A stretch of DNA of 64,000 nucleotides from Elusimicrobiota bacterium (GTDB taxonomy: Bacteria > Elusimicrobiota > Endomicrobiia > Endomicrobiales > Endomicrobiaceae), in assembly GCA_031274365.1 (NCBI GenBank), contig JAISQF010000011.1, positions 1 to 64,000 on the forward strand, written 5' to 3'. A model generated the notes under the pieces. It saw only the letters and a list, made by a program, of their open reading frames with translations. It was not told the origin of the DNA and made no database searches. The stretch's first letter is position 1. Each line of letters starts with the position of its first letter. Both the position numbers and the translations under genes were made by a program. Below are positions 3-51,548 of the stretch, one piece after another.

Positions 3-3000
3 AGCGTAGATGCGGGAACATTTTCATTGGTTGACGCTGGAAATGCAAGCGGATATTTGCCAAAGACATTTACATTAAACGCATTAAATTTATTAAACGG
101 TTCGACATTGGAAATAGGAGTGTCGGGCGGATCCAATCAAAGCGATTCGATAATTCTTTTGACGGGGATGATTGTTGATATAGACACTATATTAAATGTT
201 ATAGCTTATTCTGATTGGGACGACAGGCAGAGAGTTTATGTAATAGCGCAAGGAGTTGTGGACAATTGGAAAAATTTTGTTTATGACACTGATAATTATT
301 TATTAACTTATAGTAATACTACGGAAAGATTATTGTTATCAAGATTAAATCTTTCAGGCTGGGAGATAATGTATTGGAATGATTTGGGTTATCAGACAAA
401 CAGCTTGCAGCCGGTGTATAATGATTTAGCGACAAACGGCGACACATTATACATTAGAGAGAATATAGAATTTGACGAGGCGTTGTCAGATACAGTTAAT
501 TGGACGACATTGACTATGAGAGGTCAAGACGAGTTAGGCGGAGCGGTATTGAGAACGTTTAACGGGCAAGGAAATTCCGGACTTAGTTTATTAGGAAAAG
601 AATTGACATTTTCAGATTTGATTTTTACGAATTTCTCTACGTCAACAAACGGCGGAGCGATTTGGGCAAGCGGGTCAACGATAACATTTGGCGGAGAGAT
701 ACAATTTATAAATAATACGGCCGGTATTTTGGGCGGAGCGATTTATGCGGTAAATAATTCGTCAATAAACTTCATAGCCGGCGGAAATATTTTATTTAGC
801 GGAAATACTGCGGGCGTATTGGCAAATGATATTTATTTAGATAATTCAAAACTTTATTTGAATGCGGGAGATTATCAAATAACAATGGACGGCGGAATAA
901 CGGCAAATAACGGCGGCGAGATTTATGTGACAAACGGCGGAAATATTGGCGGTTGGCTTTTGTCAGGAGTTTCAGAATTTAACGGAATAAATAGATTTGA
1001 AATATCGCAAGGTTCAATGAGCGTGATAAACGGGAATTTGACATATATAAATAATGTTAATTTGAATTTAATAAATTCGGCGGTAAGTTTTATAAACAGC
1101 GCGGCGAGCTTTGCAAATAATACGTCGGCAACAAACGGCGGAGCGATATATGCCGAGGGTTCGACAATAAGTTTTGTATCAGGCGCCGATACGTTGTTTA
1201 GCGGAAATAAAGCGGGCGTATTGGCAAACGATATTTATTTGAATGCGTCAAAACTTTATTTGGACACAAAGAATTATCAAATAACAATGGAAGGCGGAAT
1301 AATAGCAAATAAAGGCAGCGAGATATTCTTAACAAATAGCGGCTTGGGCGGGGCTTGGGTATTGTTGGGAGCCGCAGAGTTTGGCGGCGTAAGTTCATTT
1401 AATATATCTCAAGGTTTATTAAGCGCGATAAGCACAAGCTGGACATATGTAAATAATAAAGACGGCATAAATTTATCGCATTCAACGATAAGCTTTATAG
1501 ACAGCACGGCAAGTTTTGCGTCAAACAGCACGGAGATAAACGGCGGAGCGATTTCTTTAGAAAGTTCGTATGTTGAATTTACAAATTCATCGACAAGCTT
1601 TATAAATAACAGCGCGGCGTCAGAGGGCGGAGCGATTTATGCGGTCAACGGTTCGTCAATAAGATTTACGGTTGACGGAAGCATATTGTTTAGAGGAAAT
1701 ACGGCGGGCGGATTGTCAAATGATATTTATTTGGATAGTTCAAGCCTTTATTTAGACGCTAAAAATTATCAAATAAGAATGCACGGCGGAGTAAAAGCAT
1801 ATGATGGCAGCGAGATTTCTTGGGTGCATAACGGCGGGAGCTGGTATTTGGGAGGAATTTCAGAGTTTAATAATATGAGCTTGTTTTATATATCGGCGCA
1901 AAGTTCAATCAGCGTAGTTAACGCAAGCTGGACATATATAAATAATAATAGCAGTTTGGATTTGTTGCAATCAACAATAAGTTTTATAAACAGCAGAGTG
2001 AGTTTCTTGGACAATACCAATAATACTTATGAGGAGGGCGGAGCGATTTCGCTTTCTTACGGTTTCCACTCGCGGGCAAATTTTATAAGTTCAATAGTGG
2101 ATTTTATAAACAATAAAGTTGTCGGCGGCAATGACGGCGGAGCGATTTTCATCGGCGACGGTTCGCAAATAGACTTTGTAAATTCATCGGCAAGTTTTGT
2201 GGGAAATAATGCAGACAGCGACGGCGGAGCGATTTCTCTCATTGCTTCGACATTGAACTTTACAAATTCAACGATAACTTTTATAAGCAATGCCGCCAAT
2301 TATAGAGGCGGAGCGATTTATGCCGCTTATGCCTCGCAAATGAATTTTACAAAGACATCGCTTAATTTTATAAGCAATACTTCCGAGGACGGCGGAGCGA
2401 TTTATTTCGATACTACATTAAGATTAAATTTGATGAATTCAAATGTAAGTTTTGCGGGTAATAGAGCCGCAAGATACGGCGGAGCGATTTATCTTAGCGG
2501 GGATTCAGTGCTGAGTTTTACAAATTCCGCAGCGAGCTTTATAGGTAATGACGTCACCGAATCAGGCGGAAGCGGCGGAGCGATTTATCTTATAGGCGCG
2601 CAAATAAATTTCATAAATTCATCGGCAAGTTTTGTTGGAAACCGCGCGATTGAAAACGGCGGAGCGATTTATGCGATAAATAATTCGTCGGTTGGATTTA
2701 CGGCAGGCGGAAATATTTTGTTTAGAGAAAATATGGCAAACGGTTTGGAAAACGATATTTATTTAGACGCTTCAAAACTTTATTTGGACGCGGGCGTGTA
2801 TCAGATAAGAATGGAAGGCGGAATAAAAGCCTATGCCGGCAGCACGATTTCTTGGACAAATGCGTCGGGCGGGGCTTGGATTTTAGGCGGAATAAATGAA
2901 TTGAAAAATATGGGATTGTTTAATATAGGTTCGCAAAGTTCAATTACCGTAATGAATGCAAGCTGGACATATATAAATAATAAAGCGAATTTGAATTTGA

Positions 3001-6000
3001 CAAGTTCGAGAATAAGTTTTATGGACGATATAGTGAATTTTTCAACAAATAGCGCCGCCGGAAACGGAGGAGTGATTTCTCTTAACAATAGATCTACGGC
3101 AAATTTTGTGAACGCGCAAGTGAATTTTACAAGCAATACTTCTTCTCAACAAGGCGGGGGAATTTATCTTAATAATTATTCTCAAGCAAGATTTATAAAT
3201 TCAATGGTAAGTTTTACAAGCAATGCGGCTTTGTCGGGCGGAGCGATTTCTCTTGTAAATTCACAATTGAGTTTTGCAAATTCGTTGATAAGTTTTATAG
3301 GAAATAGCGCTAATGATTTGGGCGGAGCGATTTATGCGGCAAATAATTCGTCAATAGAACTTGCGGCAAGCGACGATATATTGTTTAAAGGAAATACGGC
3401 GGGCGGAGCGGGAAATGATATTTATTTAGACAGATCAAGACTTTACTTAAGCGCTAACGACTATCAGATAAAAATGGAGGGCGGAATAAAAGCCTATGGC
3501 GGCAGCACGGTTTCTTGGACAAACGGCGCGGGCGGAAGCTGGCTGTTGGAAGGAAATTCAGAATTTAACAATATGGGTTTATTCCAAATATCAGACCATA
3601 GTTCAATTACGGTAATGAGCGCAAATTTCACTTATGCAAACAATAAGAGAGAATTGACTTTGATATTATCAACGATGAGTTTTATAGACACTTTGGGAAA
3701 TTTCACGGGCAATAGCGCGATTAACGGCGGCGGAATTTATATTCTCGGCAATTCGCTGGTAAATTTCATAAATTCAACAATGAATTTTGTGAGCAATACG
3801 GTGAACTATTACGGCGGAGCGCTTTATATTGGCGGAACTTCTCAAATAGATTTTGAAAATTCATCGGCAAGTTTCATAGGAAATAGAGCTAATTATCAAG
3901 GCGGAGCGATATATAATGCAAGAGAATTAACATTTAAGAATACTAATGTTATTTTTGAAGGAAATGTTGCGGGCATTGCCGGCAATGATATTTATAATGA
4001 TAACGGCGGAGTGATAAATATTATAGAGCAAAGCGAAATAAAACTTAGAAGCGGAATAAACGGCGGCGGAAATATAAATATAACAAATGCCGTATTGAGA
4101 GTTTCGGCAGACGGATCGACAGCAAGAGATATAACGGTTGACGCGGGAACATTTTCATTAGTTGACGCGGGAAATATAAACGGTTATTGGCCAAAAACAT
4201 TTACTGTGGACGTATTAAGTCTCATAAACGGCGGGACATTAGAAATAGGAATAGTCGGCAATTCGTATGCGAGCGATTTGATAAAACTTCTTGGGACAGG
4301 GGCGGTTATGAATGTTGGCGTTGGCAGCAAGCTGAGCATTATGACCTATGTGCCGGTGGAACAGGGGGAAAGAAATTATATTATAGCGCAAGGTTTAGTA
4401 TCTGGATGGGAAAACTTTGTTTATGACAATCAGCATTATCTATTGAGCTATAGCAATAATAGTTTATTGTTATCAATAAAAGATCCGTCAAGGGGAGATA
4501 TATATTATTGGCATGATGATGAATCGCCAGTGCACAGCTTGGAACAGGAATATGACGATATAGCGGTCGATTACGATACATTAAATATTATGGACGATAT
4601 AGGTTTTCTCAATGCATTGACGGCTAATCCAGCTAATTGGACGACATTGAAAATAAGAGGCTGGAACGGCGCGGCTGCGTTTTTAAGAACATTTGACGGG
4701 AATTCAAATCCCGGGTTTAATTTGTTTGGAAAAGATGTGGCTTTCTCCGATTTGAATTTTGTGGAATTTTCAACAGCGACAAACGGCGGAGTAATTTTGG
4801 CCGAGCAGTCAACGATAACATTTAGCGGACGAGTAAATTTCATAACCAATACCGCTGTTGGAAACGATGGAATAGGCGGAGCGATATATCTTAACTATTA
4901 TTCGCAGGCAAATTTTATAAATTCATCGGCAAGTTTTATAGACAATACCGGCGGAGAGGCTGGAGCGGTTTATGTCAATGTGAATTCAACGTTAAGTTTC
5001 ACAAATTCAACGGCAAGCTTTATAGGTAATAAAGCAACTTATCAAAACGGCGGAGCGATTTCTCTTACAAATTCGCAAGCAAATTTTATAAATTCATCGG
5101 CAAGTTTTATAAATAATCAGGCGGCTCAAAACGGCGGAGCGATATATGCGGCCAATGGTTCGCGGGTAAGTTTTGAGGCAAGCGGAGATATATTGTTTAG
5201 CGAAAATACTGCGGGCGGAGCGGCAAACGATATTTATTTGGATAATTCTCAGCTTTCTTTGGATGCAAAGAGCTATCAAATAATAATGGAAGGCGGAATA
5301 AAGGCGATAAACGGCAGCAAGATTTCTTTGACGCATAGCGGTTCGGGCGGCGGCTGGCTTTTATTGGGCGTTTCAGAATTTAACGGAGTAAATTCATTTA
5401 GAGTATCGCAAGGTTCGATGAGCGTGATAGATACGAGCTTTACATATAGACATAATCAAGACAGCCTGAGATTGGCGAGTTCGACAATGAATTTTATAAA
5501 CAGCACGGTAAGTTTTGCGTCAAATATCGGGACTGAAAACGGCGGAGCGATTTCTCTTACAAATTCGCAATTAGAGTTTACGAATTCATCAATGAGTTTT
5601 GTAAATAATCAGGCGGCTCAAAACGGCGGAGCGATTTATGCGGCTAACGGTTCATCAATAAGTTTTACGGCAATCGCTGATATAATGTTTATAGGAAATA
5701 CGGCAAACGGCTTGGCAAATGACATTTATTTGGACAATTCAAAACTTTATTTGAATGCGAGAACTTATCAGGTAAGAATGGAAGGCGGAATAATAGCAAA
5801 TAAAGGCAGCGAGATTTATTGGACAAATGAAAGCGGCGGAAACTGGGTATTGCTGGGTATTTCAGAAATTAACGGCGTAAATTCATTCCAAGTGCATCAA
5901 GGTTCAATGACTGTAATGAATGGAAGCTGGACATATATCAACAATAATGCAAATATGAAATTGACGGGCTCAACGATAAGCTTTATAAATACGATAGCGG

Positions 6001-9000
6001 ATTTTTCGACAAATACCACAATTAATAACGGCGGAGGAATTTATCTTGGCAATTATTCGCAAGTAAGTTTTATGGATTCGCAAGTGAGTTTTGCAAGCAA
6101 TAGCGCGCAATTGGGCGGAGCATTATATTTTGCCGACAATACTTCGCAATTAAATTTAATAAATTCAACGATAAGTTTTACGGGAAACAGCGCTGCGGGA
6201 AGCGGCGGAGCGATTTATCTTAACAATATGTCGTCGGTCGGTTTTATCGGACAATCGATAGATTTTGAAAACAATGCGGCGCAGAATGCGGGCGGGGCGA
6301 TTTATCTTGACGTCAATACGCAGGTGAATTTCATAAATTCATCGGTAAGTTTTACGGGAAATAGAGCCGGCAGAGGCGGAGCGCTTTATTTTAGCAATAG
6401 CACTTCGCAATTAAATTTAATAAATTCAACGATAAGTTTTACGGGAAACAGCGCGACGGGAAGCGGCGGAGCGATTTATCTTAATAATACTTCGTCAGTT
6501 GGTTTTGCCGATCAAACTGTGAATTTTATAGGCAATTCGGCTGAAACAAACGGCGGGGCGCTTTATCTTGACAGCAATACGAAATTAAACTTTACAAACT
6601 CTGTGGTGAATTTTATAGGAAATAGCGCCGACAGAGGCGGAGCGCTTTATTTTAGCAATGACACTTCGCAATTAAACTTACATAATTCCTCAATAAGCTT
6701 TGAAAACAACGAAGCGCGCGTGAACGGCGGAGCGATATATGCGATAAATAATTCGTCGATAGGATTTACGGCGGTGGGAGATATATTGTTTAGAGGCAAT
6801 AAAGCAAACGGCGCGCCAAACGACATATACTTGGTAGATTCAAGACTGTATTTGGACGCTAAGGGATATAAGATAATAATGGACGGCGGGCTGAGGGCGT
6901 ATGAGGATAGCGAAATTACTTGGAGAAATGACGAAGGCGGCGCATGGGAGCTTGGAGGGGAGAGCGAGATAAACAATATAGTATCGCTTAAGATAGCGGA
7001 GGGAAGTTCGATAACGGTGACAAACGGAAGGTTTGTATATACGGCAAATAGAAATAACTTGCATATAAGCGGTTCGACGATAAGCTTTATAAATGCCGAA
7101 GGGGCGTTTGTAAGAAATAGCGCAAGTAATAATGCAAGCAATAATGGAGGCGGCATATACTTGGATAGGGGATCATTGCTAACAAGCGAAGCGGCGGCGA
7201 TGAGTTTTGTAGGTAATGGAGCGGGGAATATGGGAGGCGGTATATATTTGGAAAGCGACAGCGATATGACGATAAAAGACTCTGAAATAAGTTTTACAAG
7301 CAATACGGCAAGATACGGCGGAGGGCTGTATGTTAGCGGCGGAGCGCGCGCAAACTTTATAGGAAGCAGCGTAAGCTTTATAGGAAACACAGCGACAGGA
7401 AACGGCGGAGCAATATATGGAGCCGAGGGATCGTCAATAGCTTTTGAAGCGGGCGGGGATATAATATTTAGAGGAAATAAAGCGAGCGGAAAAGCAAACG
7501 ACATATATTTAGAGGGCGGAAGCATATATTTGAATGCGGGAATACATCAGATAATAATGGAAAGCGGGATAAGGGCATATAAAGGAAGCACGATAACATG
7601 GAGAAACGACAGCAATAGCAATAATGGTAATAGCGGCGCTATGGTGAGAGGGATGAGAGGAAGCGGAGCGATGAGCGGCAGTTTAGGTATAGAGGCGCAA
7701 GAGAGCGGATGGATATTGGGAGGCGTGAGCGAGATAAGCGATATAGCATTATTAGAGATAGAGGAAAATAGCATAATAAGCGTAGTGAATGGAAGCTTTA
7801 CGTATGTGAATAATAAGGAAGGAATGAAGTTGGAACGTTCGACGATAAACTTTATAAACAGCACGGCAAGTTTTATAGCAAATAAAGCGGGTGATGCCGG
7901 TATGGGCGGAGGAATATATCTCAATAATAATTCGCAAATAAACTTTATAGGTTCAAAGATAAGTTATATAAACAATGAGGGGGAGCTTGGAGGAGGAATA
8001 TACCTTGATGATAGTTCGTATGCGAAATTTGAGAATACGGTTGGGATTTTTAGCGGGAATGTGAGCGTATCAAGCGGGGGCGGGATGTATGTGAACACGA
8101 ATTCGAGGATGGAATTTATAAATTCAAATATAAGTTTTACAAACAATAAAGCGGAAATCGGCGGCGGAATATATAATGAAGGGCGGTTAACGTTTAGAGG
8201 GTCGAGAGTTATAGTGGAAGGAAATGAGGGCAGAGAAGGGCGAGGGATATATAATGATGAAAGGGGAGAAATAAATATAGCAGACGGCAGTGAAGTAATT
8301 ATAAGGGATGGAATGATAGACAAAGGCAGTATAAACATAGACAATAAAGGTATATTGAGAGTATCGGCAGACGGCTCAGAGTTGGGGACGGTTAAGATAA
8401 CGAGGGGCGGTATGCTGTCAACGGTTGATACAGGCGATGGAAATAAGGGTGTGAATTACACGACAAAGACGGTGAATGTGACGGGATTAGAATTGCAAGG
8501 GATATTAGAGGTAGGAATAGTATTGAATACAAATATAAATGATTTAATAAATGTAGAGGGATCGATAGATATAATGAACGGCAGCATATTGAGCATAAGA
8601 TATTTTGGGTATTGGAAAGACGTGAGGGAATATACGGTATTAGAAGGGACTGTAAACAATTGGGAAGGTTTAAGCTATGACAATAGGTATTATTCGGTAA
8701 ATTATGATTACGGAAACAATAAATTGTTATTATTTGTGCATTCGGATCCGACGCCTAAAGCAATAGACGTGAGCGCGATATTTATAGCAAACGCCTTGAT
8801 GAATGCCGGAACAGATGTAAATGCCGATGGAATATACAATAATATAAAAGACGTGGGATTAGGCGTGAATGTTTGGGGAGAAGTGAACGGAGGGGTAACG
8901 AAAGGCGATAACGGAAATGCGATGGGAACATTTGACGTCGGCGGCGAGAATGTATATGCCGGTATGGATGTAATTGTATTAGAAAATAGCAAATTAGGAA

Positions 9001-10370
9001 TATATGTAGGGGGAATAAACAAGACATTTGGGCAAGGGGATAATAGAGGCAGTATGGACGGGTTTGAGGGAGGAATGTATGGAGGAATATTTGGAGATAG
9101 ATTGACATTAAAAGCAAAAGCGGGCGTAGAGATAGACAATATAAAGACACAAAGGGAAGTAAAAGGCGAATATGTAACGGAGAAAATGGAAGGCAGCGTG
9201 GAGGCTACGACAATAAAAGGCGGAGCGGAGATAGAGTATGAGCCGATAAAGATATCAAAAAACAAATCGTTTAAGATATTTGCGCGGGCGGATACGTCGT
9301 TGACGTCGAGCGGGGAAATGAGAGAGAAGTATAGAGAGGGCGAGTCGTTGGCGATGACAGTGGAAGGCAAGAGCGATTATATTCGCTTGACGACGAGGAT
9401 AGGCGGAAAATACACATTTAATATGGGCGGTTTGACGATAGGGGTAAAGGGATATATGGGAATGATGCCGATAGGCAATGCAGCTACATATAAGATGAGT
9501 TTAGACGAGAAGTTTGATGTGAGCAAGGAAGTGGATGGAGGAAAGTTGGCCGAGACATTTTTCGGCGCCGGGATAAACGGCGAGTATAAGATAAGCGACG
9601 GGGTATCGTTGACTGCAAATCTGAATGGAAGCAATGGGACGGATGAGTATGGATATAATGTAGGCGGAGGTTTGGGGTTGAATGTGAAGTTTGGAGGAAA
9701 GAAAGAAGTAAGAAAAAGAGCGGGCAATAATAGAAATAATAACAATAGAAATAATAATAAGAGAAGTTCAAACAATGAGAGAGTAGTGGAGAAAGTAGTA
9801 GAGACGGCTACGATAAAAGAGAAAGTGACGATAACGGAAGAGATAATACCGGTAAAAGAAGAAATAGTGCAAGTAGGTTTAGAGGACAGAGCTGTGATAA
9901 GCGGGATATTAGAAAACAGGGAAGAGGGGATAGGGGAGTGGAAGTTTAGAGTAAGAGGGAATATGTTAGAGATAAGCAAAGGTTTTGCAAAGAAGTTCGG
10001 GATAAAGGAAGGCGGCAGGATATATATAGTAGAGTATAGCGGGAGAAAGTTTTTATTTAACGGCCGTGAGAAAGCGCTGACATTTGTGAGGGAGTTGAGG
10101 GTGAGAGGCGGAAAAATAAACGGTTTAGCAATAAGGGCGATAAGGGTGAGAGGCGGAGCGATATCGGCGAGCGAATTAAGAATGAAAGACAAGAGCCAGC
10201 CATTGATAATGGAGTATAGGAATGAATATGCGGAAGCGATAACGACGAGGGAGAAAGCCAAGAGAAAATCGAGAAGCAGTAAGAATAGTAATAATGGCAA
10301 TAGCAACAATAATAATAATGTGAAATCCTATAGGGTAAAGATAGTGCCGGATGCGGCGAATTCTAATTAA
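3..10370 (+). CDS. Giant Pmp-like autotransporter adhesin (5' partial)
   Basis: The frame is open to the left edge, so the true start is upstream; the first in-window TTG (27) is internal, because the residues before it (VDAGTFSLVDAG) recur inside the protein near 4135-4175. The passenger consists of short units with F-x-x-N and GGAIY motifs, the pattern of Chlamydia polymorphic membrane protein repeats (parallel beta-helix). Nine longer modules (around a YQI-x-MEGGI core) lie near 855, 1258, 1750, 2785, 3445, 5257, 5750, 6850 and 7530. A linker module (LEIGIV...WENFVYD) occurs at about 60, 4150 and 8420. A Gly-rich alternating-strand region at about 8750-9700 looks like a type V autotransporter barrel. 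It is followed by about 220 extra residues: an Asn/Arg-rich linker, a Val/Glu/Ile segment, a small folded-looking region and a second Asn-rich tail. The role is probably surface adhesion (inference). Codon choice turns strongly purine-rich from about 6700 onward. Confidence 0.85.
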   Translation, partial: SVDAGTFSLVDAGNASGYLPKTFTLNALNLLNGSTLEIGVSGGSNQSDSIILLTGMIVDIDTILNVIAYSDWDDRQRVYVIAQGVVDNWKNFVYDTDNYLLTYSNTTERLLLSRLNLSGWEIMYWNDLGYQTNSLQPVYNDLATNGDTLYIRENIEFDEALSDTVNWTTLTMRGQDELGGAVLRTFNGQGNSGLSLLGKELTFSDLIFTNFSTSTNGGAIWASGSTITFGGEIQFINNTAGILGGAIYAVNNSSINFIAGGNILFSGNTAGVLANDIYLDNSKLYLNAGDYQITMDGGITANNGGEIYVTNGGNIGGWLLSGVSEFNGINRFEISQGSMSVINGNLTYINNVNLNLINSAVSFINSAASFANNTSATNGGAIYAEGSTISFVSGADTLFSGNKAGVLANDIYLNASKLYLDTKNYQITMEGGIIANKGSEIFLTNSGLGGAWVLLGAAEFGGVSSFNISQGLLSAISTSWTYVNNKDGINLSHSTISFIDSTASFASNSTEINGGAISLESSYVEFTNSSTSFINNSAASEGGAIYAVNGSSIRFTVDGSILFRGNTAGGLSNDIYLDSSSLYLDAKNYQIRMHGGVKAYDGSEISWVHNGGSWYLGGISEFNNMSLFYISAQSSISVVNASWTYINNNSSLDLLQSTISFINSRVSFLDNTNNTYEEGGAISLSYGFHSRANFISSIVDFINNKVVGGNDGGAIFIGDGSQIDFVNSSASFVGNNADSDGGAISLIASTLNFTNSTITFISNAANYRGGAIYAAYASQMNFTKTSLNFISNTSEDGGAIYFDTTLRLNLMNSNVSFAGNRAARYGGAIYLSGDSVLSFTNSAASFIGNDVTESGGSGGAIYLIGAQINFINSSASFVGNRAIENGGAIYAINNSSVGFTAGGNILFRENMANGLENDIYLDASKLYLDAGVYQIRMEGGIKAYAGSTISWTNASGGAWILGGINELKNMGLFNIGSQSSITVMNASWTYINNKANLNLTSSRISFMDDIVNFSTNSAAGNGGVISLNNRSTANFVNAQVNFTSNTSSQQGGGIYLNNYSQARFINSMVSFTSNAALSGGAISLVNSQLSFANSLISFIGNSANDLGGAIYAANNSSIELAASDDILFKGNTAGGAGNDIYLDRSRLYLSANDYQIKMEGGIKAYGGSTVSWTNGAGGSWLLEGNSEFNNMGLFQISDHSSITVMSANFTYANNKRELTLILSTMSFIDTLGNFTGNSAINGGGIYILGNSLVNFINSTMNFVSNTVNYYGGALYIGGTSQIDFENSSASFIGNRANYQGGAIYNARELTFKNTNVIFEGNVAGIAGNDIYNDNGGVINIIEQSEIKLRSGINGGGNINITNAVLRVSADGSTARDITVDAGTFSLVDAGNINGYWPKTFTVDVLSLINGGTLEIGIVGNSYASDLIKLLGTGAVMNVGVGSKLSIMTYVPVEQGERNYIIAQGLVSGWENFVYDNQHYLLSYSNNSLLLSIKDPSRGDIYYWHDDESPVHSLEQEYDDIAVDYDTLNIMDDIGFLNALTANPANWTTLKIRGWNGAAAFLRTFDGNSNPGFNLFGKDVAFSDLNFVEFSTATNGGVILAEQSTITFSGRVNFITNTAVGNDGIGGAIYLNYYSQANFINSSASFIDNTGGEAGAVYVNVNSTLSFTNSTASFIGNKATYQNGGAISLTNSQANFINSSASFINNQAAQNGGAIYAANGSRVSFEASGDILFSENTAGGAANDIYLDNSQLSLDAKSYQIIMEGGIKAINGSKISLTHSGSGGGWLLLGVSEFNGVNSFRVSQGSMSVIDTSFTYRHNQDSLRLASSTMNFINSTVSFASNIGTENGGAISLTNSQLEFTNSSMSFVNNQAAQNGGAIYAANGSSISFTAIADIMFIGNTANGLANDIYLDNSKLYLNARTYQVRMEGGIIANKGSEIYWTNESGGNWVLLGISEINGVNSFQVHQGSMTVMNGSWTYINNNANMKLTGSTISFINTIADFSTNTTINNGGGIYLGNYSQVSFMDSQVSFASNSAQLGGALYFADNTSQLNLINSTISFTGNSAAGSGGAIYLNNMSSVGFIGQSIDFENNAAQNAGGAIYLDVNTQVNFINSSVSFTGNRAGRGGALYFSNSTSQLNLINSTISFTGNSATGSGGAIYLNNTSSVGFADQTVNFIGNSAETNGGALYLDSNTKLNFTNSVVNFIGNSADRGGALYFSNDTSQLNLHNSSISFENNEARVNGGAIYAINNSSIGFTAVGDILFRGNKANGAPNDIYLVDSRLYLDAKGYKIIMDGGLRAYEDSEITWRNDEGGAWELGGESEINNIVSLKIAEGSSITVTNGRFVYTANRNNLHISGSTISFINAEGAFVRNSASNNASNNGGGIYLDRGSLLTSEAAAMSFVGNGAGNMGGGIYLESDSDMTIKDSEISFTSNTARYGGGLYVSGGARANFIGSSVSFIGNTATGNGGAIYGAEGSSIAFEAGGDIIFRGNKASGKANDIYLEGGSIYLNAGIHQIIMESGIRAYKGSTITWRNDSNSNNGNSGAMVRGMRGSGAMSGSLGIEAQESGWILGGVSEISDIALLEIEENSIISVVNGSFTYVNNKEGMKLERSTINFINSTASFIANKAGDAGMGGGIYLNNNSQINFIGSKISYINNEGELGGGIYLDDSSYAKFENTVGIFSGNVSVSSGGGMYVNTNSRMEFINSNISFTNNKAEIGGGIYNEGRLTFRGSRVIVEGNEGREGRGIYNDERGEINIADGSEVIIRDGMIDKGSINIDNKGILRVSADGSELGTVKITRGGMLSTVDTGDGNKGVNYTTKTVNVTGLELQGILEVGIVLNTNINDLINVEGSIDIMNGSILSIRYFGYWKDVREYTVLEGTVNNWEGLSYDNRYYSVNYDYGNNKLLLFVHSDPTPKAIDVSAIFIANALMNAGTDVNADGIYNNIKDVGLGVNVWGEVNGGVTKGDNGNAMGTFDVGGENVYAGMDVIVLENSKLGIYVGGINKTFGQGDNRGSMDGFEGGMYGGIFGDRLTLKAKAGVEIDNIKTQREVKGEYVTEKMEGSVEATTIKGGAEIEYEPIKISKNKSFKIFARADTSLTSSGEMREKYREGESLAMTVEGKSDYIRLTTRIGGKYTFNMGGLTIGVKGYMGMMPIGNAATYKMSLDEKFDVSKEVDGGKLAETFFGAGINGEYKISDGVSLTANLNGSNGTDEYGYNVGGGLGLNVKFGGKKEVRKRAGNNRNNNNRNNNKRSSNNERVVEKVVETATIKEKVTITEEIIPVKEEIVQVGLEDRAVISGILENREEGIGEWKFRVRGNMLEISKGFAKKFGIKEGGRIYIVEYSGRKFLFNGREKALTFVRELRVRGGKINGLAIRAIRVRGGAISASELRMKDKSQPLIMEYRNEYAEAITTREKAKRKSRSSKNSNNGNSNNNNNVKSYRVKIVPDAANSN
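640..8170 (+). repeat. DNA-level repeat array inside the giant autotransporter gene
   Basis: A near-identical core reading GGCGGAGCGATTTAT, encoding G-G-A-I-Y, recurs dozens of times at irregular 60-120 nt spacing (for example at 736, 1624, 2140, 2224, 2308, 2392, 2476, 3318, 6207, 6464). Longer modules of about 500 nt, with ND-IYLD, YQI-x-MEGG and SWTYINN blocks, recur nine times. Nucleotide identity is high enough that unequal recombination could change repeat number. Module copies past about 6700 have diverged in codon use from the earlier ones. Confidence 0.8.
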
Positions 10371-16050: not shown

Positions 16051-19000
16051 ATGCTGACAAATCGAATACGCTATAATGCTTTAGCCATTATTTTGAATAA
16101 GTATTGTAATTGCAGTTTTTGGACAGTAGGCCGCAGTAAATTGTTTTTCTTACGCCGTAAATCAAAACATACGGTTAATAAAGTGTCGTCACTGCAGGAC
16201 TACAACAAAAGTGACGAAATCAATATAAAATCATATCAGAATTGTCGTATTTCTTCTCTTATTAAAATATTGCGAATTAAAAAGACCGCGGCGGTTGCGG
16301 GGTTATTATTTATTGGGAGTTTTTGTTTTGCAACAGAGTATTCTGTAAATAATTGGACTGACTTAGATAGAGACTATAGCGCCGCAACGGGAACAGACGG
16401 TATTTTAAATATTCTCAATAATATCACTTTTACCGCTATCTTAAACAGCAGCCCTTCTTGGACAACGTTAAGGATAAGAGGGTGGAATGCCAGCGCGGTG
16501 ATTTTAAGAACATTTGACGGGAATGGAAATTCAGGGTTTAGTTTGACGGGAAGAATAGCGACTTTCTCCGACTTGAATTTTATAAATTTTTTGAATACCG
16601 GTAATAACGGGGTTATTTCTGTAAATGGGTCAACAGTAACGTTTGATGGAGAAATAAATTTTACAAACAATACGGCAGAGACAAATGGCGGAGCGATATA
16701 TGCTATAGGGAATTCGTCAGTGGGGTTTATAGCGGGCGGGGATATTTTGTTTAGAGGAAATAGAGCGGGTAATTTGGCAAATGATATTTATTTAGATAGT
16801 TCGCGGCTTTATATGAATGCAAAAAATTATCAAATAATGATGGAAGGCGGAATAAAAGCGGTCAACGGAAGCACAGTAATTTGGACAAATGACGCGGGTG
16901 GGAGCTGGATTCTAAGCGGAATAAATGAATTTAATAATATGGCTTTGTTTAACATAGATCAGCAAAGTTCGATAACGGTGAAAAATGCAAGCTGGACATA
17001 TATAAATAATAATGGAGTGAACTTGAGTTTAGAAAATTCGACAATGAATTTTATAAACTCAATAACAAAATTTACAGAAAATACAAGGGCAAACCCGGGC
17101 GGAGCGATTTATCTCGACAGTAATTCACAATTAAATTTTACAAATTCGACAGTAAGTTTTGCTGGTAATAATACAGACGGCAGAAATAGTTATGGCGGAG
17201 CGATTTATCTCGACAGTAATTCACAAGCAGATTTTATAAATTCGTCGGTAAGTTTTGCAGGCAATAATGCCAAACTTGGATATGGCGGGGCGATATGGAC
17301 GAGTCAATCAACAATAACATTTAGCGGACGAATAAATTTCACAAGCAATTCCGCCGGTATTGGCGGAGCGATTTATGCAAAAACCCGCTCAATAATAACA
17401 TTCAATGGACAAATGAATTTTACAAGCAATACGGCCGGCGCTTATGCCGGAGCGATTGATATTGAGAGTAATTCGCAAGCAAATTTCATAAATTCGACAG
17501 TAAGTTTTATGGGCAATACAACCGGCGGTGACGGCGGAGCAATTTATATTAGCAATAATTCGCAAATAAGGTTTAGCAATACGAGAGCGATATTTGAAGG
17601 AAATAATGCGGCATCCGGCAAAGACATTTATAATAACGGTGTGATAAATATTTTGGCCAAAAGCGAAGTGATACTCAGGAGCGGGATAAACGGCGGCGGA
17701 GATATAAATATAGAAAATGCGGTATTGCGGGTGTCGGCTGATAATTCGAATGCAGAAGTTATAACGGTAAAAGGCGGGGGCGTATTTTCATTAGTGGATG
17801 CGCAAAACGCAAATGAATATTCGACAAAAACATTTAGCGTCAACACATTGAATTTGAACAATGGCGGGGCATTGGAAATAGGCATAGTGTTAAGTTCTGA
17901 CACGAGTGATTTAATAGATTTGGGAGCATCAGGAGAGATGAATGTTGACATTGGCGGAAAGCTAAACATTAGATATTTTGGGCAATGGCAAACAGCGAGG
18001 AGTTATGCGATAGTGCAAGGAACAGTAAATAATTGGGAAGGATTAGTTTATGATAAGGGGCATTATTTATTAGATTATGATGAAAATGTAAAAAGATTAT
18101 TTTTACGTGCGCTGAGTGATCCGAGCATAAGCTCTGCAGGTGAGGCGATAAGCGGAGTATTTTTAGCAAATGTAATAAGGGAAATAGGGCGGGCTGATAA
18201 TAGCCAAATATATGAAAATAGTCATAGGGATATATGGGTGTCTGGAGGGATAAGCGGAGTGAAAATAAATGATAAAGACAATGGGGATTTTATAAATAGA
18301 GGCAGCGGAGTAAAAACGGGAATTGCGATGATAAGAAGAGGAGGATTTGCGGCGGGAATTTACGGGGGATATTTGAAAGGTGATTTTAAGGATGAAAATA
18401 ATATGGCAAATTTTGAAGGCGGGGAAGCGGGGATATACGGGTCATATTTAATAAGCAAAGCGATAAAGCTGCAAGGAGCTGTTGGGTATGGAGTATCGAG
18501 GGTGATAGCGAGCAAAGGAATGACAAATGCGGATTTTGAAGCGGAGTCAATAAGGTATGGATTTGAGGGCGAGTATAAGATTAAAAAGGGATGGGCCTCG
18601 TTTATAGGAATGGAAAGGGCGGAAGTATCGCATAAGAAAATAGCGGAATATGATAAAGAGGGCGAGGTTGGGACGATAGGCGGTGCGCAATATTCAAGAT
18701 TAAATGCGACGGGGGGAATAAAGGCAGGTGGAAAGATTTTTAAAGTAAGAGGGTATATTGGATATACGATAGAGGGTAGAAAACCGGAATTAAGATATAG
18801 CGGCGCAGGCGCGGCAGAGACGGAAAAGATAGAAGGGAAAGAGGATGCGGCGATATTTGCGGGATTGGGTATGGGTATGGAGATATCCTTTAGCGATAAT
18901 TTATCGATATTTGTAAATGGTCAGACGAATGGAAATAATGATTATTTAGCATACGGGGCAAATGCGGGAATAAGTTATAAATTTATTCAAAAGAAGTCTA

Positions 19001-19062
19001 AAAACAAGAGAATTATTAAACGTAGGAAAATTATTAGACTTCAAAGATGCCGCAGAGGATAA
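16051..19062 (+). CDS. Pmp-like autotransporter with extended signal peptide
   Basis: The 1,003-residue protein is a compact relative of the giant protein at the left edge. AGGAGG four bases before the ATG fixes the start, giving a 94-residue N-terminal extension that ends in a signal peptide (RIKKTAAVAGLLFIGSFCFA, cleavage after residue 94), comparable in length to extended autotransporter signal regions. The passenger (about 95-690) has F-x-x-N and GGAIY units and one YQI-x-MEGGI module. About 700-980 is a Gly-rich barrel region (ISGVFLANVIRE, then alternating strands to GANAGISYKF). A very basic tail of about 25 residues follows the final predicted barrel strand, whereas canonical barrels end with an aromatic residue. 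It is flanked by two copies of a palindromic repeat. Confidence 0.85.
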   Translation: MLTNRIRYNALAIILNKYCNCSFWTVGRSKLFFLRRKSKHTVNKVSSLQDYNKSDEINIKSYQNCRISSLIKILRIKKTAAVAGLLFIGSFCFATEYSVNNWTDLDRDYSAATGTDGILNILNNITFTAILNSSPSWTTLRIRGWNASAVILRTFDGNGNSGFSLTGRIATFSDLNFINFLNTGNNGVISVNGSTVTFDGEINFTNNTAETNGGAIYAIGNSSVGFIAGGDILFRGNRAGNLANDIYLDSSRLYMNAKNYQIMMEGGIKAVNGSTVIWTNDAGGSWILSGINEFNNMALFNIDQQSSITVKNASWTYINNNGVNLSLENSTMNFINSITKFTENTRANPGGAIYLDSNSQLNFTNSTVSFAGNNTDGRNSYGGAIYLDSNSQADFINSSVSFAGNNAKLGYGGAIWTSQSTITFSGRINFTSNSAGIGGAIYAKTRSIITFNGQMNFTSNTAGAYAGAIDIESNSQANFINSTVSFMGNTTGGDGGAIYISNNSQIRFSNTRAIFEGNNAASGKDIYNNGVINILAKSEVILRSGINGGGDINIENAVLRVSADNSNAEVITVKGGGVFSLVDAQNANEYSTKTFSVNTLNLNNGGALEIGIVLSSDTSDLIDLGASGEMNVDIGGKLNIRYFGQWQTARSYAIVQGTVNNWEGLVYDKGHYLLDYDENVKRLFLRALSDPSISSAGEAISGVFLANVIREIGRADNSQIYENSHRDIWVSGGISGVKINDKDNGDFINRGSGVKTGIAMIRRGGFAAGIYGGYLKGDFKDENNMANFEGGEAGIYGSYLISKAIKLQGAVGYGVSRVIASKGMTNADFEAESIRYGFEGEYKIKKGWASFIGMERAEVSHKKIAEYDKEGEVGTIGGAQYSRLNATGGIKAGGKIFKVRGYIGYTIEGRKPELRYSGAGAAETEKIEGKEDAAIFAGLGMGMEISFSDNLSIFVNGQTNGNNDYLAYGANAGISYKFIQKKSKNKRIIKRRKIIRLQRCRRG

Positions 19063-24358: not shown

Positions 24359-25609
24359 CTAATTTTCTTTCAATGTCCATAAACCCAGAGCGGGATTACT
24401 TATATAATATATCTCCTCGCCGTTTATGGTGTTGTATCCGTCTTTAAGTTTTTTGGGATCGTAAATTTTTGCCGCTTCGTCATAAGGCATATAATTAAAA
24501 TTTACGTCTCTAATTTCTTTTTCGGTCAAAAGTTTTGTGCAATAAGTTATCTTAAAATTTCCGTCGCTTGAGCCGTGAATCAAATGTGCGGCCACGGAAA
24601 GATTTTTTTTGACTTCGTCGTATTTTTTGACTAAATCTAAAACATTTTCCCGTCCGATATATCCGTATTTTCGTATGAGAGCGTCGTTTTGATCGTCTTC
24701 TCCAAATTTTCTTATACCCGGAGCCAAAATAATAAGTTCTCCTCCCGGAGCCATTGCTTTTCTTGAACGATAAATGGATTTATTTCCAACCCATGTTGTT
24801 TTGAATTCCAACGGGTCGAGATAGACGACGGCTTTTTTTATCGGTTTGTCCACATATATTATGTTGTTTTTTTGAGAGAGGCGGACGGCGGCTTCAAAAT
24901 TTGCTCGTTCGCGTCCGATATAAAGTCCTTGAATGAGAGCATTATTTTTTTCAACGGTAATGACGGTGAGGATATATAGTATAGGCAGGTTTTTAAGAAA
25001 TTTTTCCTCGGCATAATCAAAGACTTTTCGGACGGGAGAAAAATCTTTTCCCAAAAGTCTTTCGGCGCCGTAAAAAGCTCCCAGCATATGAGAGGAATTT
25101 ATCATACTGTATCCGCCGCATCCTACGAAAATATTTTTTGAATAATTAGCCATACCGACGACTTCGTGAGGAACAACTTGTCCTATTGAAAGGATAATAT
25201 CGTATGCAGAATCGGTCAATCTTTTATTGACCTCAACGTCTATTTTATTATCGACAAGTCCTTCGGAAACCTCTTTGACAAAATCGGACGGAACTTCGCC
25301 AATTTTGACAACATCGTTTCGCCAATTATGATTTATAATTTTTTCAAAAGGGACAGCGCCTTCAAAAAAATCTTGACATTCTTGAGACGTCATATATTCG
25401 TGAGTCCCCAATGCGGGCATAATGTCAACTTGAACTTTATCTTTTAAGAGATTGTAATACATTGCGGTGAGTTTTCCTGCTCCAGAATACATTCTGGTAT
25501 AATCCGGCGGTAAAATTAAAACTTTCTTTAGATTTTTTCCTTCAATTGATTTTTTAAGCGCTTCAAACAACTGCTCGTCAGGAATGCCCAATTCATTTTC
25601 TATAATCAT
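24359..25609 (-). CDS. LarA-type nickel-pincer 2-hydroxyacid racemase/epimerase
   Basis: The 416-residue protein aligns with lactate racemase LarA at the key positions: PDYTR (D36, R39), GTH (H70), PHEVVG (H148), K158 exactly ten residues later, and H174 at +26. The last three have the spacing of LarA H174, K184 (the lysine that bonds the nickel-pincer cofactor) and H200, so a functional cofactor site is likely. LarA homologues include lactate and malate racemases and a gluconate 2-epimerase; with GntP next door an aldonate epimerase is my preferred reading. Cofactor genes larB/C/E are not in this window. RBS AAAGGAG precedes the ATG. Confidence 0.8.
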   Translation of the reverse strand: MIIENELGIPDEQLFEALKKSIEGKNLKKVLILPPDYTRMYSGAGKLTAMYYNLLKDKVQVDIMPALGTHEYMTSQECQDFFEGAVPFEKIINHNWRNDVVKIGEVPSDFVKEVSEGLVDNKIDVEVNKRLTDSAYDIILSIGQVVPHEVVGMANYSKNIFVGCGGYSMINSSHMLGAFYGAERLLGKDFSPVRKVFDYAEEKFLKNLPILYILTVITVEKNNALIQGLYIGRERANFEAAVRLSQKNNIIYVDKPIKKAVVYLDPLEFKTTWVGNKSIYRSRKAMAPGGELIILAPGIRKFGEDDQNDALIRKYGYIGRENVLDLVKKYDEVKKNLSVAAHLIHGSSDGNFKITYCTKLLTEKEIRDVNFNYMPYDEAAKIYDPKKLKDGYNTINGEEIYYISNPALGLWTLKEN

Positions 25610-25779: not shown

Positions 25780-25794
25780 GGGGGGGGGGGGGGG
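25780..25794 (+). repeat. G15 homopolymer in divergent promoter region
   Basis: Fifteen consecutive G in otherwise AT-rich DNA, in the context AAAAT-G15-TATAT. The same flanks surround the G14 tract inside the flavoprotein gene at 50199-50212 (minus strand). The distance to the larA-type start is about 170 bp. Confidence 0.8.
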
Positions 25795-26101
25795 TATATT
25801 TTAATATATTACTACACATAAAACCGTTGAAGTTAAATAAAGTAAGAGCTTCCACAGAAAAGTTTGAAAACTTGGTAAAAATTGAAAAGCGTGAATTGTT
25901 AGGCATAAAGCAAAACCTTTCGTCTTTTAATTTTAACAGCAAAAATCTATGTATTAAATTTTTATAAAATTGTCAAGCATATTAAAATAAATCCGCAATT
26001 TAATAACATTGACATATTGCTATTAAATTTTTTTTTTGTCATAATTATTTTGCTCGTATTTGATTTATATTAAACACAATGGCGTGTGCAATAGAGGAAA
26101 T

Positions 26102-49470: not shown

Positions 49471-50082
49471 TTATAGTAATTTTATATCCTCAAACATAGC
49501 TTTATAAATGTCCGCTTTTTCAGATAACGGTTTTGGATAGGCTCTTGAAGTGGAAGGCATTCTATAAACTTTCAATAATCTTTTCTTATATTTATATTCT
49601 GAGAAATGTCCTATCAGAGGTTCCTCAATTGAAACTTTGGATAAAAATATATCCATCGCTTTTTGTCCGGTTAAAATAATTGTTTTGCATTTTGGAATAC
49701 TATCGATTATTTTTTCTATAGCGGCTGTTTTTATGACTTTCAAAAAATTGTCCGAAGCATTATTTTTTAAGCGAATAATCTCAACCGCGCTATCGCCTAT
49801 TCCTATTGCTTTTTTTATGCAAAAGTTTCTGGCTTTTTTCTCGTCAAAAGCTTTGCCTGATAAATCCACGAAATAATTTTTATCGTTAAAAAATATCAAT
49901 CCCAAAATTCGCCACATATCGTTTTGAAAATTAGGATAATAAAAATTCATAGACCAACGTTGTTTTTTGGGAGGAAAGCTGCCGAGCATAAGAACTTTTG
50001 TGTTTTTGCGTAGGAAAAATCCAAGAGGATGCTTTTGTATTTTTTGAGAATCTTTAAGAATTTTTATTTGTTTTTCTTTCAT
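49471..50082 (-). CDS. Uracil-DNA glycosylase superfamily protein
   Basis: 203 residues. KVLMLGSFPPKKQRWSMNFYYPNFQNDMWRILG (about 29-61) is the active-site region of a UDG-like subfamily seen in anaerobes; GIGDSAVEIIR and the late MPSTSRAYP resemble the second UDG motif. Probably removes or recognises a damaged base; the exact activity is untested for this subfamily. If the upstream flavoprotein is read in its alternative frame, the gap between the two genes is only 16 bases. Confidence 0.75.
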   Translation of the reverse strand: MKEKQIKILKDSQKIQKHPLGFFLRKNTKVLMLGSFPPKKQRWSMNFYYPNFQNDMWRILGLIFFNDKNYFVDLSGKAFDEKKARNFCIKKAIGIGDSAVEIIRLKNNASDNFLKVIKTAAIEKIIDSIPKCKTIILTGQKAMDIFLSKVSIEEPLIGHFSEYKYKKRLLKVYRMPSTSRAYPKPLSEKADIYKAMFEDIKLL

Positions 50083-50180
50083 TTTGATTTTGCAGTTTTT
50101 ATTTCCTCAACTCTAATCCCGTCTCATTAATCAGAGAACTCTCCTGATACGAATCATAATCTGTATTCACTTGCCAAAGA

Positions 50181-51548
50181 TTATGCCGCCTTGATATACC
50201 CCCCCCCCCCCCATTTTATGTTTTCAGCCGCCAAAATACCCATCAATAATGAATGATCTTGATTGTTATATTTGAACGCTCCATTACGTCCTATGCATTG
50301 TAAATTGGAAATTGAGTCAAGATAATTTTGAAGCGGCTTTAAGTCCTTTTTATACCCTTTGTGATAAGTAGGATAAGAGCGGCTAACTTTATATACATAT
50401 CCGTCTATTATGGGATAATTTTTGGACAACCCTGATTTTTGAATTTCTGCTTTTGCAGTGTTTATGATATCTTGTTCGGGCATATTCCAAAAAGCATCAT
50501 TTTCATTGCACCAATACTCCAAAGCAAGAATTGTTATTTTGTTTTTGCCGTAAAGTTCCGGTATCCAGTTTCTAAAATTTGTAATCCGCCCCATCATCAA
50601 ATCTGGGGAGTGAACATAAAGCCAATTGTCGTCAAATAATTTTGTCCCTTCAACTTTAAGATAGACGATAATGCTATTTCTGTATTTTAAATTTTCCAAA
50701 TGCGCGATAATTTCCGCCGGCAAATTCGGCAATTGCCGAATAAGGTCGGTAAAAGGCATAGTGGATATTATCTCATCAAAAAAGCGCGGCCTTTGTCTCC
50801 CCTCTATCTCTACGCCAAGCGCAACACCGTTTTCCACTATCACTTTTTTGACAGAGGTATTGTAAAGTATTTTCCCATTATGATTTTGGATATATTCGGC
50901 CATGCGCCGATAGATCAGACCCGCGCCTTCTTTTGGATAAGCAAATTTATCGGCAAGCGTTTTGTGCTGATTTTTCTTTAACTTTAAGGCGTTGAGTATT
51001 ACCTCGGACATAGACAACTTTTTTATACGTTGCCGCGCAAAATCATCATCAAGTTGGCTGCACTTGATACCCCATAGTTTTTCACTGTATGTCTTAAAAA
51101 ACATTGTATAGAGCTTTTTCCCAAAGCGGCTAATCGTCCAAGTCTTAAATGACCCATCTTGTTTAATTGGCGCTATTTTCTCTTTTAGATAGCTCAAAGC
51201 GCATATTGCGGCGGTAAAGACGCCCACTTTTTTCAAAGCGTCAAACGCGGCGATTGGATAAAAGAAAAATTTATTTTTATAAAAAATGCGCGTAAGCCTA
51301 TTGACCATTTTATAGTCTTTTTGCGCGGCTTGGAGCCACAGTTTATTGACGCGCAAATTGTAAGAAAAAAAGCGGTGAGGACCAATATCAACTAAACAAT
51401 CCCAGAGTTTGATAGTTTTACACATACCGCCGGGAACATCAGACATTTCATAGAGGGTAATCTCATTGTTTGGATTAGTTGATAGTTCATAGGCGGCCGC
51501 AAGACCCGCAGGTCCGGCGCCTATAATTGCAATGCGTTTTTTTGTCAT
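50181..51548 (-). CDS. UDP-galactopyranose mutase/amine-oxidase-like flavoprotein, C-terminus shifted at a G14 tract
   Basis: The 455 residues begin with FAD motif IAIIGAGPAGLAAAYEL (6-22) and VPGGMCKT, followed by GPHRFFS, ECSEKLWG-like YSEKLWGIKC and YPKEGAGLIYRRMAEYI, all as in COG1232/UGM-like oxidoreductases of glycan synthesis. As read the protein ends W-GGGG-YIKAA just after a G14 run. With 13 or 16 G the frame continues to a stop at 50099, adding RRHNLWQVNTDYDSYQ and about 14 more residues. That ending has the W-x-V-N-T-D...Y-x-E pattern typical of the family. The displayed form may therefore be an OFF or altered phase. Confidence 0.8.
   Translation of the reverse strand: MTKKRIAIIGAGPAGLAAAYELSTNPNNEITLYEMSDVPGGMCKTIKLWDCLVDIGPHRFFSYNLRVNKLWLQAAQKDYKMVNRLTRIFYKNKFFFYPIAAFDALKKVGVFTAAICALSYLKEKIAPIKQDGSFKTWTISRFGKKLYTMFFKTYSEKLWGIKCSQLDDDFARQRIKKLSMSEVILNALKLKKNQHKTLADKFAYPKEGAGLIYRRMAEYIQNHNGKILYNTSVKKVIVENGVALGVEIEGRQRPRFFDEIISTMPFTDLIRQLPNLPAEIIAHLENLKYRNSIIVYLKVEGTKLFDDNWLYVHSPDLMMGRITNFRNWIPELYGKNKITILALEYWCNENDAFWNMPEQDIINTAKAEIQKSGLSKNYPIIDGYVYKVSRSYPTYHKGYKKDLKPLQNYLDSISNLQCIGRNGAFKYNNQDHSLLMGILAAENIKWGGGGYIKAA
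50199..50212 (-). repeat. G14 tract inside the flavoprotein gene
   Basis: Fourteen C on the plus strand (G on the coding strand), flanked by AAAAT and TATAT exactly as the G15 tract at 25780-25794. It covers the point where the family's conserved C-terminus should begin. Slippage by one G changes which of three C-termini is made. Confidence 0.9.

Follow-up and report, generated by a model that had tools for sequence, protein, structure and literature searches.

A G14 tract that probably switches the conserved C-terminus of a UGM-fold flavoprotein in and out of frame in an Endomicrobiaceae genome

Is a run of 14 G near the 3' end of a flavoprotein gene a genetic switch, an error of counting, the scar of a decaying gene or a site at which ribosome or polymerase changes frame? 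The window, i.e. the whole 64-kb stretch of DNA analyzed here, belongs to a 1.04 Mb assembly (59% complete) of a member of the Endomicrobiaceae, phylum Elusimicrobiota. The first-pass annotation of this locus proposed phase variation of a UGM-like enzyme. The features that bear on the question are the following.

50199..50212, minus strand: G14 tract (C14 on the plus strand), the proposed switch; exact run length and frames for 9-19 G
50181..51548, minus strand: UGM-fold flavoprotein gene as read, 455 aa, ending 5 residues past the tract; open reading frame and NF005548
50099..50185, minus strand: conserved C-terminal tail HNLW...ELRK plus stop, in frame at 13, 16 or 19 G; frames, homologues and codon differences
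49471..50082, minus strand: next gene, 203 aa, starting 16 nt past the long-frame stop; spacing and TIGR04274
51577..53310, minus strand: upstream gene for a 577-aa hydrophobic protein; open reading frame

The run consists of exactly 14 C on the plus strand, as had been claimed, and the three endings described for different G counts are reproduced exactly. With 14 G, the assembled length, the protein of 455 aa closes with GGGGYIKAA; 13 or 16 G give 482 or 483 aa with HNLWQVNTDYDSYQESSLINETGLELRK; and 15 G give the ending VYQGGIIFGK. As in a contingency locus, the length of a long simple repeat sets the frame, the full frame being reached at 13 or 16 G. The stop of this long frame ends at 50099 and the next gene starts at 50082, so that the 16-base spacing reported for the two genes is exact on recounting. 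The tail had been put at about 30 residues; it exists in the 13-G frame, but measures 28 residues from HNLW to the stop. All other G or C runs in the window are 6 bases or shorter, save a G15 at 25780-25794. Runs of at least 14 are expected about 7e-6 times per 64 kb under an independent-base model, which places G14 far beyond chance. As to the neighbors, the likeness of the next gene to DNA-deoxyinosine glycosylases is weak (TIGR04274, 40.9 bits against a cut-off of 80), and searches of Pfam and NCBIfam with the upstream gene returned no family match.

The flavoprotein matches the Pfam family Amino_oxidase and scores 499.7 bits against NF005548, well above the curated cut-off of 389 for the PRK07208 group even without the tail. 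The equivalog model of UDP-galactopyranose mutase (UGM), TIGR00031, is missed by far (25.6 bits against 303.75), and the likeness to this enzyme is found at the level of the fold only. When the full-length homologue L064 was modelled (mean pLDDT 87), the solved structures closest to it were UDP-galactopyranose mutases (4dsg, TM 0.80); the tail of L064 is modelled with moderate confidence (about 71-75) as two short strands. The protein is hence a PRK07208-family flavoprotein with a predicted UDP-galactopyranose-mutase fold, modelled on homologue L064. The description "UGM-like" holds for this fold but not for the sequence, which is of the PRK07208/NF005548 type. For the protein as read, model confidence is very low past residue 447, with a pLDDT of 34 in the last block.

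Is the tail out of frame part of the normal protein? The first-pass annotation took W-x-V-N-T-D...Y-x-E for the usual C-terminus of the family, and a set of 80 homologues fetched from GTDB genomes bears this out: all carry the ending, with YQE in 80 and LWx[IV]NTD in 77. The frame proposed as ON is accordingly that of the conserved protein. None of the 80 homologous genes contains a G or C run of at least 7, and in this the window gene differs from all of them. The linker before LW spans 18 residues in 72 of the 77 homologues with LWx[IV]NTD and 19 in the other five, compared with 23 residues in the window gene when read with 13 G. Since a run of one or four G would give the window gene a linker of 19 or 20 residues, the expansion of a short G run would be the simplest history. 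Over 26 codons of the tail, the gene differs from L064 by 9 synonymous and 4 nonsynonymous changes and from L065 by 9 and 3, while the core (444 positions) shows 169 and 134 differences, respectively. Judged from these codon differences, the tail codons are under purifying selection; such a pattern is expected if selection acts on the tail as protein. From the conservation of the tail we infer that function would be lost without it.

These observations also bear on the reading of the gene as a recent pseudogene with a tract that is a neutral lesion, a reading we consider quite improbable. The tail is indeed missing from the assembled frame, and genome erosion is documented for Endomicrobiaceae (PMC11257099); yet the 455 residues as read align end to end with the homologues and show no second lesion, the tail remains conserved with mostly synonymous codon changes, and tracts of the same kind occur in many other genes.

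We therefore regard slipped-strand ON/OFF phase variation at a simple-sequence contingency site, assembled in its OFF state, as the probable explanation of the locus. The basis is the tract, the frames, the conservation of the tail and a set of similar tracts. Replication slippage at the run would add or remove G and thereby shift the last 28 codons of the UGM-fold flavoenzyme in or out of frame. Lengths of 13, 16 or 19 G would be ON and yield the full enzyme with its conserved tail; all other lengths, including the assembled one, would be OFF and yield a protein without it. A fixed DNA sequence on which ribosomal frameshifting or transcriptional slippage produces both a short and a long protein is a very remote prospect by comparison. 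Translational frameshifting at G/C tracts is described for Campylobacter maf genes (cited in PMC3068675); here nothing favors it over slippage of the DNA, and it does not need long pure runs, though the two processes may act together.

The assembly contains 26 G or C runs of at least 9, some of which are contig-end debris; the genome's count is about 20. Ten tracts, that of the window gene and nine others in which 1-2 G restore the frame, sit where an altered G count rejoins two frames:

UGM-fold flavoprotein gene of the window: 14 G, split frame
acetyltransferase: 12 G, hexapeptide-type sequence past the tract, named by eye
PMT_2-like protein: 18 G, Pfam match just under the cut-off
family 8 glycosyltransferase (GT8): 16 G, split frame
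three FkbM methyltransferases: 12, 15 and 16 G, split frames; tract length varies among the copies
two family 2 glycosyltransferases (GT2): 14 and 15 G, tracts near the N-termini
PTS EIIBCA (permease): 16 G, split frame

The contingency layout proposed for the locus is strengthened by these nine further frame-splitting tracts, mostly in glycan genes, and related genomes, whose FkbM genes also have tracts, strengthen it further. Given the similar runs in about nine other surface-sugar and uptake genes, the window tract most likely belongs to a group of on/off switches that flip at random. With about ten of them, mostly in glycosyltransferases, FkbM methyltransferases and an acetyltransferase, the population would form a mosaic of cells that differ in their surface glycans, if these genes act on the surface as we suppose.

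The same inventory speaks to the possibility that the gene has a fixed in-frame length of 13 or 16 G, that the assembly has miscounted it by one, and that no switching of consequence takes place. Long homopolymers are poorly counted in short-read assemblies, several contigs start with poly-C of 22 to 70, which hints at trouble at such runs, and only one of the ten split genes, the 16-G FkbM copy, is in frame as assembled. We nevertheless judge a mere miscount unlikely: a run of 13-16 G would itself be expected to slip, and counting errors would not produce other tracts of 12-18 G mainly in one functional class. The poly-C stretches lie at or near the starts of contigs C1, C3, C6 and C18 (L009, L013, L020, L031); they are probably artefacts where reads enter a real tract, and they were not counted as biology.

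Elsewhere in the genome, tracts precede genes; among these genes are two autotransporters, with tracts 163 and 177 nt before their starts. The second tract of the window is of this intergenic kind:

25780..25794, plus strand: G15, intergenic, 170 nt upstream of a minus-strand hexonate epimerase-like gene (24359-25609)

A role of this tract as a promoter spacer was dropped on inspection by eye: about 32 nt separate the nearest -35-like hexamer from its -10-like partner, and the distance of 170 nt to the start is a further point against it. Loss of mismatch repair as the cause of the tracts was dropped as well, judged on MutS alone, which is present with an intact frame of 853 aa.

Two further observations concern the surroundings of the tracts. 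The tract upstream of several unrelated genes, namely glycosyltransferases, an autotransporter and an epimerase-like gene, is directly adjoined by a repeat of about 250-320 bp that has diverged to 65-79% identity; its copies are L014 (window 25795-26100), L009, L020, L021, L028 and L030. Homology among them often ends at the tract, which gives the impression of a shared 5' module linked by the tract to different genes. The window also contains two repeat-rich open reading frames on the plus strand, 27-10370 and 16051-19062 (3447 and 1003 aa), with GGAIY-type repeats, an autotransporter-like C-terminal part and, by eye, a resemblance to Pmp adhesins.

Some paralogues in the same genome lack the tract. 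Where the tract copy of the GT8 gene has GGAGAC-G16-TATTTAG, its tract-free tandem paralogue has GGAGAATATGGGGCAGGGTATCTAG; where the FkbM tract copies have AAAAGAT-Gn-TATCTCC, a tract-free copy has AAGAACTCGAACGGTAATTTTTG. We thus dropped the idea of an inserted element with target duplication: judging by the tract-free paralogues, short G-containing sites have been expanded or replaced. Two FkbM contigs, L226 (end of C11) and L231 (start of C21), agree at every position over the last 119 bases (104 nt plus G15); past this stretch they are about 85% identical, and their tracts count 16 and 15 G. This looks like a fork of the assembly graph at the tract, due either to identical 5' halves of two paralogues or to recombination there.

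FkbM genes carry tracts in other Endomicrobiaceae as well. One on contig C100 of genome G001 is in frame as read (12 G, 392 aa), and in G001 C37 (10 G), G005 C170 (13 G), G013 C18 (14 G) and G013 C207 (15 G) an altered count lengthens the frame by 61 to 230 residues beyond the tract. On G035 C27 a tract terminates an FkbM-like frame, the gain there being only 26 residues. In Candidatus Endomicrobium trichonymphae, 11 G precede a tRNA-like sequence (L043; G023 C1, about 128476). Such tRNA-like genes usually begin with about four G, and the case looks like run expansion at the start of the gene.

Puzzling, too, is the sequence that follows the tracts. In the window's genome, 13 of 17 distinct contexts of G runs of at least 9 continue with TA, compared with 4.5% after runs of 3-6. 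The proportion is 7 of 11 in G006 and 11 of 20 in the metagenome-assembled genomes (MAGs) G060-G064, but only 1 of 9 in the sister species G001; related copies inflate all of these counts. Summed by hand over 295 genomes of the phylum, G11-TA has about 128 occurrences, against 48 for the mirror AT-G11. In the tract-free GT8 and FkbM paralogues, TA or GTA is already present. TA thus follows the tracts far more often than expected by chance.

The flavoprotein gene itself is likely to have been acquired horizontally, judging from its phylogeny. Its nearest kin are found in MAGs of Bacteroidales, at about 70% identity, while the best match among the sampled genomes of its own phylum reaches 40%. 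In the tree, it groups with MAGs of Dysgonomonadaceae and Tannerellaceae (100/98) inside a six-member clade (100/100); no second-strain orthologue was found. Going by their isolate codes (Cc175, Cf509, Nc350, Kf353, Pcl387), these MAGs are presumably from termite guts. Gene uptake from other gut bacteria is documented for Endomicrobiaceae (PMC11257099). The window itself is of this family, in which G023 has a plasmid that matches NZ_AP017460.1 (Candidatus Endomicrobium trichonymphae) with full identity. The nearest homologues come from five MAGs (G060-G064, owners of L064-L068), which belong to different families and hold 6-8 long G tracts each, whereas nine of 11 other homologue-bearing genomes hold none. 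This richness could reflect the biology of the habitat or a shared sequencing pipeline. In the genome with the nearest homologue (Dysgonamonadaceae), tracts split four further genes, by eye an acetyltransferase, an epimerase-like gene, a membrane protein and an FkbM-like gene.

The closest known counterpart is Campylobacter jejuni, whose G/C homopolymeric-tract contingency genes serve LOS, capsule and flagellin glycosylation, e.g. Cj1295 (PMC3068675). Both systems have pure G/C runs within many sugar-modifying genes, where a change of one G shifts the frame, and tracts common to paralogous families. They differ in tract length (8-10 in the table of PMC3068675, mostly 12-18 G in the Elusimicrobiota genome), in phylum, in the position of the window gene's tract near the C-terminus, and in that the present tracts are known from assembled sequence. 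For the Pmp autotransporters of Chlamydia pneumoniae, poly-G phase variation has been hypothesized (cited in PMC4514472); the likeness is that G tracts accompany repeat-rich autotransporters, here two genes, and the difference is that the autotransporter tracts of the window's genome lie outside the coding frame. Among the papers searched, none joins Endomicrobium and phase variation, and only four mention both Elusimicrobia and phase variation. Most likely, the locus would be a contingency locus of the Campylobacter/Neisseria kind in a new lineage, the mechanism being known and the setting new.

The best-known cases of homopolymer-tract phase variation come from vertebrate pathogens and commensals; the relatives of the source bacterium are symbionts of termite-gut flagellates. 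If the reading as a genome-wide set of switches is true, it would mean bet-hedging of surface glycans in an uncultured member of the Elusimicrobiota, in a system without adaptive immunity, and the selective force would be phages, protist hosts or competitors. A wider proposal is tentative and, in our view, rather doubtful: gut symbionts of unrelated phyla (Endomicrobiaceae, Bacteroidales and others, probably all from termite guts) may have independently built large sets of long-G-tract switches in glycan genes of the same kinds (FkbM methyltransferases, acetyltransferases, epimerases and UGM-fold enzymes), with some genes exchanged horizontally and the tracts preferring TA-followed sites through an unrecognized mutational preference. 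Should this joint reading hold, surface variation would be a shared way of life of the symbionts in these guts.
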